Shown here: piece after piece, positions 1-3,981 of the stretch | Numbering within the stretch: the first letter of the stretch is position 1 | Layout of the letters: every line of letters starts with the position of its first letter | NCBI RefSeq assembly: GCF_900100335.1 | Contig: NZ_FNFE01000003.1 | Span: 372,001-436,000 of the forward strand | Origin: Natronorubrum texcoconense | GTDB lineage: Archaea; Halobacteriota; Halobacteria; Halobacteriales; Natrialbaceae | Direction: 5' to 3' | Length of the DNA: 64,000 nt | Notes under the pieces: model-generated | The model's input: the letters and a program-made list of their open reading frames with translations, nothing else | Told to the model about the DNA's origin: nothing | The model's database searches: none | Program-made: the position numbers and the translations under genes

Positions 1-267
1 ACGAAGCCCGCGACGCTCGACCTCGGCGGCCGCTTTCACCGCGACCGCATCGAGATTCGGAGCACTCAGGTGAGCACGCTCGATCCGCGACTCTCCGGTC
101 GCTGGTCCCGCGAGCGACGCCACGACCTCACCTGGGAGTGGCTGGAGCGACTCGAGGTCTCGCCGCTGCTCACACACGAACTGCCGCTCGAGGACGCCGG
201 CGAGGCCTACGAACTGCTCGAGGAGCGTCCCGACGAGGCGATTCAGGTGCTGTTGACGTACGACTAG
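1..267 (+). CDS. Zinc-type alcohol dehydrogenase-like protein, C-terminal part (5' end outside window)
   Basis: The reading frame is open from base 1 to a TAG at 265-267, giving 88 residues. The strand order and the ending (a glycine-rich beta strand, then a helix with EDAGEAYELLEERPDEAIQV) fit the C-terminal lobe of medium-chain dehydrogenases, where the last helix before a short beta strand is typically D/EAxxAyxLL. The catalytic and NAD(P)-binding parts lie outside the window, so substrate cannot be judged. It may belong with the PTPS-like/glycosyltransferase/methyltransferase operon at 1533-3981, although two regulator genes lie between. Confidence 0.6.
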   Translation, partial: TKPATLDLGGRFHRDRIEIRSTQVSTLDPRLSGRWSRERRHDLTWEWLERLEVSPLLTHELPLEDAGEAYELLEERPDEAIQVLLTYD

Positions 268-1532: not shown

Positions 1533-1910
1533 ATGTACTCGGTCTCCGTCTCCCGATCCATTATCGCCCAGCATTACCTGACGGTGCCCGAACCGGGTCC
1601 CGAAGGCGACCGTCACTCCCACCAGTTTACGATCGAGGCGACACTCCGCGGTTCGGAACTGAACGAGTACGAATACCTCGTCGACATCGACGACCTCGTC
1701 GACGCGATGGACGCGCTGGCCGCGTTCTACGGCGACCGCACGCTTAACGATCTCCCCGCGTTCGAAGGGGCGAACCCGAGCGCGGAACGATTCGCCCGCG
1801 TCTTCGGCGATCGGCTGCTCGAGCGACTCGAGACCGACGGCGTCTCCGAACTCCGGATCGAGATCGAAGAAGACGACGTGGCCCGCGTGGCCCACGAGCG
1901 CTCGCTCTGA
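1533..1910 (+). CDS. 6-pyruvoyl-tetrahydropterin synthase/QueD-like protein with altered catalytic residues
   Basis: 125 residues, the usual length for the PTPS/QueD fold. Three zinc histidines are visible: H14 (AQHYL) and H28/H30 (RHSHQF). The family's catalytic Cys, four residues before the HxH, is replaced by Glu24, and the protein has no cysteine at all. The 'DH..LN' motif reads GDRTLND, so the catalytic His is Arg69 while Asp68 is kept. A C-terminal Glu (E110 or E112) probably anchors a pterin-like ring. Canonical QueD or PTPS chemistry is therefore unlikely. PTPS-III enzymes also use Glu in place of Cys, so a lyase role is possible. The gene is 2 nt upstream of a glycosyltransferase, itself overlapping a methyltransferase, which suggests a dedicated pathway. 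Confidence 0.75.
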   Translation: MYSVSVSRSIIAQHYLTVPEPGPEGDRHSHQFTIEATLRGSELNEYEYLVDIDDLVDAMDALAAFYGDRTLNDLPAFEGANPSAERFARVFGDRLLERLETDGVSELRIEIEEDDVARVAHERSL

Positions 1911-1912
1911 CG

Positions 1913-3034
1913 ATGGAGGTCGGACTGGTCGTCGAAGGGGATCTCGAGCAAACGTCGGGCGGCTACCGATACGATCGGAAACTCGTCTCGTTTCTCGAGC
2001 GCCGGGGGGACGAGGTCGACGTCCTCTCGCTCCCGGCGCGGTCGGACGACGATCGGGGACTCGAGACGGTTTCCGCACCCTCCAATCCCTCCAGTACCGA
2101 CCGATCGATTCGCGACCGACTGGACCGCCCGTACGACGTCCTCCTGCAGGACGAACTCTGTCACCCGACGTTAGCCGAGCACAATCCACACCTCGAACGA
2201 CCCGGAGCGATCGTTTCGCTCGTCCACCTCCTCCGGACGCCCGACCCGGTAGTGGACGACTCTCGCGTGCGCGAACGCGAAAAACGGTACCTCGAGTCCG
2301 TCGACGCCGCGGTCTGTACCAGTTCGTACACCCGCGATCGGACGACCGACCTCGCGGACGGCGATCTCCCGACGCTCGTTGCCCCGCCGGCAGGGCGGCA
2401 CGAGGGGGTGGCACTGTCCGCCGACGACGTCCGCGAGCGCGCCCGAACCGATCCGTTTCGAATCGCGTTTGTCGGGAACGTCGTCCCGCGAAAAAACGTG
2501 ACGACGCTGCTCGAGGCGCTGGCACGGATCGACGGAGGAAAACACGACTGGCGAGCGACCGTTGTCGGCTCCCTCGAGACCGATCCAACGTACGCTCGAG
2601 CGGTTCGCGAGCGGGCACGCTCGCTCGGCCTCGACGACCGGGTGACGTTCACCGGGAGGATCGAGACGGCCGTCCTCGAGTCGGTCCTCGAGCGCTCGCA
2701 CGCCCTCGCGGTGCCGGCGAGCTACGAGGGGTTCGGGATGGTCTACCTCGAGGCGATGGAGTACGGCGTCGTCCCGATCGCCAGCAGCGTCGGCGGCGCG
2801 AGCGAGTTCGTCGCGGACGGTCGGAACGGGTTCGTCGTCGATCCGACCGATCCGGAGCGACTCGCGGATCGACTCGGCGCGCTCGCGGCCGACCGCGACC
2901 GACTCGCGGCGCTGGGAACCGGAGCGCTCGAGACGGCGACAGTCCATCCAACCTGGAGCGAAACGCTAGGAGCGGTTCGGACGTTTCTCCAACGATGTTG
3001 CGAGGGCGAGTCGACCGGAGGTGACCCGGCGTGA
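1913..3034 (+). CDS. Glycosyltransferase family 4 (GT-B fold)
   Basis: 373 residues. The C-terminal nucleotide-sugar domain is clear: FRIAFVGNVVPRKNVTTLLEAL at about 181-203, then RVTFTGRI, and the E-x7-E motif in YEGFGMVYLEAMEYG with PIASSVGGASEFV and NGFVVDPTDPE. The N-terminal acceptor domain starts MEVGLVVEGDLEQTSGGYRYD. The donor sugar and acceptor cannot be read from sequence. It begins 2 nt after the PTPS-like gene and its stop overlaps the methyltransferase start by 4 nt (GTGA), so the three are almost certainly cotranscribed. Confidence 0.85.
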   Translation: MEVGLVVEGDLEQTSGGYRYDRKLVSFLERRGDEVDVLSLPARSDDDRGLETVSAPSNPSSTDRSIRDRLDRPYDVLLQDELCHPTLAEHNPHLERPGAIVSLVHLLRTPDPVVDDSRVREREKRYLESVDAAVCTSSYTRDRTTDLADGDLPTLVAPPAGRHEGVALSADDVRERARTDPFRIAFVGNVVPRKNVTTLLEALARIDGGKHDWRATVVGSLETDPTYARAVRERARSLGLDDRVTFTGRIETAVLESVLERSHALAVPASYEGFGMVYLEAMEYGVVPIASSVGGASEFVADGRNGFVVDPTDPERLADRLGALAADRDRLAALGTGALETATVHPTWSETLGAVRTFLQRCCEGESTGGDPA

Positions 3035-3981
3035 CCGACTCGATGCAGGCGTATCTCGAGGCCAAACGCTCCGTCGACGACCGCGCGCTGAACCGGCGCG
3101 TTCTCGAGCGGTTCGCCGCAGAACTCTCCGCGCCACCGGAAACGGAACCGGTTCGGATCGTCGAACTCGGCTGCGGCGTCGGCACCATGATCGCCCGCTT
3201 CGTCGAGTGGAATTGCCTGCCAGCGCGGGTCTCCTACCGGGCCGTCGATCGGGACGCAGCGAGTATTCAACGCGCGCGAGAACTGGTTCCCGCGCGGCTC
3301 GAGGCGGCCGGCTATGCGGTCGACTCCCTCGAGTCGGGGGTCGACGAGACGGTCGAAGGCGGCATCCCGAAATCGACCACGCTCGTCGCTCGGCCCGACG
3401 AGACGAGCGACGACGGTAGCAGCAGGCGACTCGAGATCACCCTCGAAGTCGCCGACGCGTTCGGCCTCGAAGACGACGCGAACGCCGTCGTCGCGGCGGC
3501 GCTGCTCGACATCGTCGACCTCGAGGACGCGATACCCGGGATCGCAGACCTCCTCGCGGATGAGGGGCTGTGTTACGCGCCGATCACGTACGACGGAGGA
3601 ACGACGTTCGCGCCACGGGATCGGGTGGACGACCGAATCGAAGCGCAGTACCACCACCACATGGACGAGGTTCGGGACGACGGGAGCAGTCGGGCCGGGA
3701 GCGAACTCCTCGCGGTGCTCCCCCAACAGGGGTGGAACGTCCTCGCCGGCGGCGGCTCGGACTGGGTCGTCCGACCGACCGATGGCGAGTATCCCGACGA
3801 CGAGGCCGCGGTCGTCGCTCGGGTTCTCGAGACGATGGCCGACTCACTCGAGGCGGTGCCGTCACCCGAACTCGGCGCCGACGCTCGTCGGCGATGGTTC
3901 GCCCGTCGGTGGCGCGAACTCGAGGCCGGCGAACTCGTCTACGTCGCGCACAATCTCGACGTGCTGGCGCGCGTTCCGTAA
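3031..3981 (+). CDS. Class I SAM-dependent methyltransferase
   Basis: 316 residues from GTG 3031, which overlaps the upstream stop by 4 nt. An ATG at 3043 is an alternative start. Motif I is VRIVELGCGVGTMIARF at about 46-62, followed by the acidic strand YRAVDRD. A long acidic insertion follows (about 85-145). Later segments include AAALLDIVDLEDAIPGIADLL and a His-rich YHHHMDEV. The C-terminal region, ending YVAHNLDVLARVP, is not one I recognise. The context (PTPS-like protein plus GT4) suggests it methylates a glycosylated small molecule, which is inference only. Confidence 0.75.
   Translation: MTDSMQAYLEAKRSVDDRALNRRVLERFAAELSAPPETEPVRIVELGCGVGTMIARFVEWNCLPARVSYRAVDRDAASIQRARELVPARLEAAGYAVDSLESGVDETVEGGIPKSTTLVARPDETSDDGSSRRLEITLEVADAFGLEDDANAVVAAALLDIVDLEDAIPGIADLLADEGLCYAPITYDGGTTFAPRDRVDDRIEAQYHHHMDEVRDDGSSRAGSELLAVLPQQGWNVLAGGGSDWVVRPTDGEYPDDEAAVVARVLETMADSLEAVPSPELGADARRRWFARRWRELEAGELVYVAHNLDVLARVP

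Follow-up and report, generated by a model that had tools for sequence, protein, structure and literature searches.

The active site of known PTPS enzymes sits between subunits. In PTPS-I and QueD (6-carboxytetrahydropterin synthase), the T-fold, the zinc histidines, a PTxE-like motif and an anchoring Glu are accompanied by a CxxxHGH motif and an Asp-His pair, and PTPS-II carries CxxxxxHGH. The PTPS-IV subfamily, represented by SCO6650 from Streptomyces coelicolor (PDB 3d7j), bears the signature FGPAQ in the motif FGPAQxxHGA, where Ala stands in the Cys/Glu position and two zinc histidines are left, and the paper describing the SCO6650 structure is said to report neither zinc nor PTPS activity. 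The motif of PTPS-III is ExxHGH, which places the Glu one residue nearer to the HxH than the Cys of QueD; the same work leaves the role of PTPS-V unclear and gives that of PTPS-IV only as unpublished (PMC5041015). With respect to genomic context, PF00925 and PF01872 have been reported around PTPS-IV (PMC5445326); both PTPS-IV and its GCH-II/RibD_C neighbourhood are already known.

The gene considered here (1533..1910, + strand) lies in a window of 64,000 nucleotides, the whole stretch of Natronorubrum texcoconense DNA that was analysed. Its open reading frame is a real gene, the translation of which gives a 125-residue protein that contains no Cys, as the preliminary description had stated. 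Membership of the PTPS superfamily is evident from the match to Pfam PTPS PF01242/COG0720 (74.5 bits against a cut-off of 22.4, E 9e-21), and the match to the QueD equivalog TIGR03367 falls below threshold (38.6 bits versus 89.25). An AlphaFold2 model with 37 homologues in its input is a T-fold with a pLDDT of 97; as the model is a monomer, a meeting of E24 and D68 across subunits lies outside its reach. When this model was compared with the PDB, 35 chains matched the predicted fold at E ≤ 0.001, with PTPS-family proteins in all the leading places: SCO6650 ranks first (TM 0.91), followed by QueD (TM about 0.80) and then by Plasmodium PTPS structures and other PTPS. SCO6650 was also the top match by sequence profile (E 8e-19). 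The protein is a PTPS-superfamily member with a predicted T-fold and belongs to an E24-type subfamily adjoining PTPS-IV.

Alignment with a canonical QueD (L030) puts the zinc-His places at H14 (codon 1572..1574, +), H28 and H30 (H28-S29-H30, or HSH, 1614..1622, +) and the Cys place at E24 (1602..1604, +), which bears out the earlier claims that the three histidines are retained as predicted zinc ligands and that a Glu occupies the Cys position. In a sample of 116 distinct close homologues, H14 and H30 are each found in 116/116 and H28 in 113, with Asn in the other three, and E24 is kept in 115, the remaining one having Asp; all are far above chance. Asn replaces the predicted ligand H28 (giving NSH) in the haloarchaeal members L091, L095 and L112. 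As to the Asp-His pair, both the L030 alignment and a profile alignment with E. coli QueD, in which ryrdetlnd of the present protein stands opposite RLDHHYLND, pair D68 (1734..1736, +) with the catalytic His of QueD and residue 67 with its catalytic Asp. D68 is conserved in 113/116 homologues, and both residue 67 (R/A/S/G) and residue 69 (E/A/R/T) vary, such that the earlier equation of the DH motif with D68-R69 was off by one. The PTxE-like motif of the pterin pocket corresponds to N81-P-S-A-E85 (1773..1787, +), and the counterpart of the pterin-anchoring Glu is E113 (1869..1871, +); E85 and E113 are each present in 116/116. A set of 29 bacterial members retains E24, H14, H28, H30, E85 and E113 in 29/29, with Asp at position 68 in 24 and Glu in 4. 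At least one Cys occurs in 51 of the 116 homologues, and its absence from the whole protein is consequently no rule of the clade; at the active-site column, none was seen among the 116.

Judged from these alignments, the protein is a fixed active-site variant in which Cys is replaced by Glu, Asp by a variable residue and His by Asp, with the predicted zinc site and ring pocket retained. The original view that the catalytic Cys and His had been lost is accurate insofar as both are replaced, but it fails as a description of simple loss, since the variant defines a stable, conserved subfamily adjoining PTPS-IV. A pseudogene or chance residue loss was considered and rejected on the strength of conservation across the 116 homologues.

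The haloarchaeal and bacterial members form one clade with a support of 100/99 in a midpoint-rooted tree of 81 proteins and 125 columns. The PTPS-IV proteins with FGPAQ (SCO6650, L125 and L136) form a clade of their own (100/99), and the two clades are together set apart from the QueD-like rows (98/91 under the midpoint root); the tree program cautions that PTPS-IV is joined across long branches. Members of the E24 clade come from haloarchaea, Methylococcales and Rhodothermota: the PTPS was found in 88 of 146 haloarchaea, in 28 of the 121 Methylomicrobium-order genomes covered by an order-level search, and in 4 of 248 genomes of the phylum of the Rhodothermaceae MAG, and a wide search of Pseudomonadota returned it in the starting genome only. 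The haloarchaeal proteins make up a single group (99/94) adjoining the Rhodothermota proteins, a placement in the tree that suggests gene transfer from bacteria to haloarchaea.

The neighbours of the PTPS gene, passed over in the preliminary description, form a recurrent cluster. The window opens with the C-terminal end of a BchC-like MDR ('zinc-binding') dehydrogenase (1..267, +; full gene G000:C4:371260-372264, the rest lying upstream of the window), a homologue of which (L005) shows ADH_zinc_N (PF00107) and a TIGR01202-like match. A GT4 glycosyltransferase gene (1913..3034, +) starts 2 nt past the PTPS stop and shares a 4-nt overlap with the gene for a class I SAM methyltransferase-like protein (3031..3981, +; weak Pfam match). 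In 88 haloarchaeal loci, same-strand adjacency to PTPS was observed for the MDR in 76, GT4 in 62 and the methyltransferase in 66, and 49 of the 88 neighbourhoods have a CDP-alcohol phosphatidyltransferase within reach. Genome-wide, the MDR never occurs without the PTPS in haloarchaea (86/86), and it accompanies the PTPS in 86/88 (p 7e-39, a statistic that ignores kinship). Most relatives have the MDR directly before the PTPS; here the two are separated by a pair of regulator-like genes at 326-1466, encoding a BAT/HTH_10 protein and a DUF7344 protein. A protein of unknown family with no Pfam match (L100 4492-5568 and relatives) is encoded directly ahead of the MDR in about a dozen loci.

A GTP cyclohydrolase is often part of this neighbourhood. 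GCH-III, the identity of which is supported by Pfam and NCBIfam, lies within 8 kb of the PTPS in 31 of 88 haloarchaea, where about 0.4 would be expected, and in 14 of these 31 genomes it is a second copy, another being located elsewhere. Genomes with two GCH-III copies number 17/88 with the PTPS versus 2/58 without (p 0.005). In the remaining 57/88 GCH-III is away from the PTPS, the distance in the window's own genome being 75 kb. Two copies are also present in two haloarchaeal genomes that lack a PTPS of the E24 clade (G087 and G111). In Haloferax volcanii, arfA (GCH-III, HVO_1284) is required for riboflavin (PMC8305020).

The bacterial loci show a related arrangement with a different cyclohydrolase. 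GCH-II/RibD_C (fused or adjacent), the MDR and the PTPS occur together in 29/29 bacterial loci examined, joined by the methyltransferase in 21, GT4 in 15 and CDP-alcohol phosphatidyltransferase-like proteins in 12. By pattern, 27/29 show both the zinc cysteines of GCH-II and its RQEGRG motif, and the only domains matched by the fusion protein of L028 are GCH-II and RibD_C, a deaminase domain being absent. GCH-II with RibD_C is absent from beside the PTPS in haloarchaeal loci, that of the window's genome included, and the 88 haloarchaeal neighbourhoods yielded no RibD_C gene. The ArfA/GCH-III and GCH-II/RibD_C steps resemble those of the riboflavin type and would supply the first step or steps of the presumed pathway; they differ from them in that the cluster GCH-III is often a second, separate copy and that the bacterial fusion unites GCH-II with RibD_C and has no deaminase.

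PTPS-IV is the closest parallel. Besides being the nearest PDB entry in sequence and fold and keeping the ring-binding Glu, it has the same neighbours: the PTPS-IV locus L221 contains MDR, PTPS-IV, GT4, methyltransferase, CDP-alcohol phosphatidyltransferase, RibD_C and GCH-II, the last two of which agree with the published context (PMC5445326). It is unlike the E24 clade at the active site, where FGPAQxxHGA with Ala and two zinc histidines contrasts with GPEGxxHSH, Glu and all three histidines; FGPAQ is absent from the present protein, which has GPEG, as do most E24-clade members.

Building from these observations, we favour, with somewhat better than even confidence, a role in a dedicated pathway that starts from GTP: a Zn/Glu/Asp T-fold enzyme would carry out one of its steps, on a 2-aminopyrimidine or pterin which is afterwards glycosylated and methylated. 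A GTP cyclohydrolase, GCH-III in the haloarchaea and GCH-II in the bacteria, would open GTP in the direction of a 2,5-diamino-6-ribosylaminopyrimidinone phosphate with the 2-amino group kept, and in bacteria the deaminase-less RibD_C reductase, fused or adjacent, would turn the ribosyl into a ribityl group. Ring closure of the GCH-I type would be impossible once the chain is ribityl, and the T-fold enzyme may therefore meet a pyrimidine rather than dihydroneopterin triphosphate; the latter, put forward earlier as assay substrate, may be the wrong one. Within the active site, the 2-aminopyrimidine or pterin would be anchored by its ring to E113 and the NPSxE loop, zinc on H14/H28/H30 would bind side-chain hydroxyls, and E24 and D68 may serve as acid/base in place of Cys and His, the side chain being cleaved or isomerised. 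The BchC-like MDR could then provide a redox step, GT4 could add a sugar and the methyltransferase could methylate the product. What the analysis demonstrates is the family, predicted fold, conserved residues, clade, operon and co-occurrence; the zinc binding, hexamer, chemistry, substrate, step order and product of this scheme are inferred. The earlier suggestion that a pterin-like substrate undergoes a different reaction gains support from conserved E24 and D68, the invariant pterin-anchor Glu and PSxE, and the GTP-derived neighbourhood.

Against the proposed pathway stand the 57/88 haloarchaea with GCH-III away from the PTPS and the lack of RibD_C in the haloarchaeal cluster. A further challenge, to the side-chain chemistry, comes from PTPS-IV itself. 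Its proteins occupy equivalent clusters without the Glu and one zinc His, and the shared function may therefore need neither zinc nor E24. For this reason a protein that performs no side-chain catalysis is a serious rival: it would instead bind a pterin or pyrimidine, or tautomerise the ring, as a partner of the MDR or GT4, and its zinc site would be a relic. The ring-binding Glu and S/TxE kept in these PTPS-IV relatives, and the reported absence of zinc and PTPS activity in SCO6650, lend weight to it. We nonetheless regard it as unlikely, as the retention of E24 in 115/116 homologues, of H14 and H30 in 116/116, and of H28 and D68 in 113/116 hints that selection maintains a functional metal/acid site. 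Coenzyme F420 also begins from a GTP-derived ribitylaminopyrimidine, and a step of its synthesis would accord with PTPS-IV being the nearest described subfamily. An F420 role has been suggested for PTPS-IV as unpublished (PMC5041015). This proposal is improbable, since CofH-like genes (all below the family cut-off, with CofG cross-matches possible) occur in 145/146 haloarchaea regardless of the PTPS, and GT4, the methyltransferase and the MDR do not fit the known F420 steps.

Roles drawn from the better-known subfamilies fare worse. The preliminary description drew a parallel with PTPS-III, known from Plasmodium and Pyrococcus, on account of the Glu in the Cys position. A PTPS-III-like retro-aldol enzyme that bypasses dihydroneopterin aldolase in the folate pathway has in its favour that Glu replaces Cys as the candidate catalytic residue and that the fold is matched by Plasmodium PTPS structures, in the PDB titles of which E37 is given as catalytic. 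The parallel is weak in other respects: E24 is four residues, not three, before the first His, the motif is ExxxHSH instead of ExxHGH, the DH pair is replaced, no folate genes are among the neighbours, and MptD (PF04038), which covers the folate role, is present in 146/146 haloarchaea versus 88/146 for the E24-clade PTPS. A folate function is accordingly highly improbable. That the protein is a QueD, as RefSeq names its plasmid relatives and as the weak TIGR03367 match might imply, is scarcely credible given a score so far below the equivalog cut-off. The CxxxHGH motif and the Asp-His pair are missing, being replaced by ExxxHSH, a variable residue 67 and D68 for His, and queuosine/archaeosine genes are absent around 1533-1910. 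The same genome also has a second PTPS-family gene with CxxxHGH (GKCSRPHGH) beside ORFs that by inspection resemble queC and queE; this canonical queD and the presence of MptD in every sampled haloarchaeon make archaeosine and folate roles unlikely. PTPS-II was rejected too, its CxxxxxHGH motif being absent from a protein without Cys.

We raise tentatively the possibility that haloarchaea, Methylococcales and Rhodothermota have in common a pathway to an undescribed GTP-derived cofactor, pigment or signal molecule, with the PTPS acting on a 2-amino-ribosyl- or ribitylaminopyrimidine and the product glycosylated, methylated and perhaps lipid-linked. Pterins named from haloarchaea include sulfohalopterin and phosphohalopterin. 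Literature searches on the cluster, haloarchaeal pterins and SCO6650 found no open paper on the pathway of this gene cluster, nor did the literature covered yield the Glu/Asp/HSH subfamily, its near-absolute tie to the MDR, the haloarchaeal GCH-III link or the Methylococcales distribution; the subfamily might be the group called PTPS-V. Several COG0720 subfamilies await a function, and here a precisely altered active site goes with one fixed set of genes in both archaea and bacteria, which opens the substrate and product to direct test in a haloarchaeon amenable to genetics. Such work would correct the RefSeq name '6-carboxytetrahydropterin synthase' on E24-clade proteins.

Plasmid matches (H1-H10, L126-L129) place the cluster on haloarchaeal megaplasmids of Haloarcula, Halobellus, Natronorubrum and Halomicrococcus, where the RefSeq name of the relatives and its queuosine GO term are probably over-annotation. 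On the plasmid of Haloarcula marismortui ATCC 43049 (H9, H10), the PTPS match is in two pieces and no PTPS gene is listed, which looks like a frameshifted copy.
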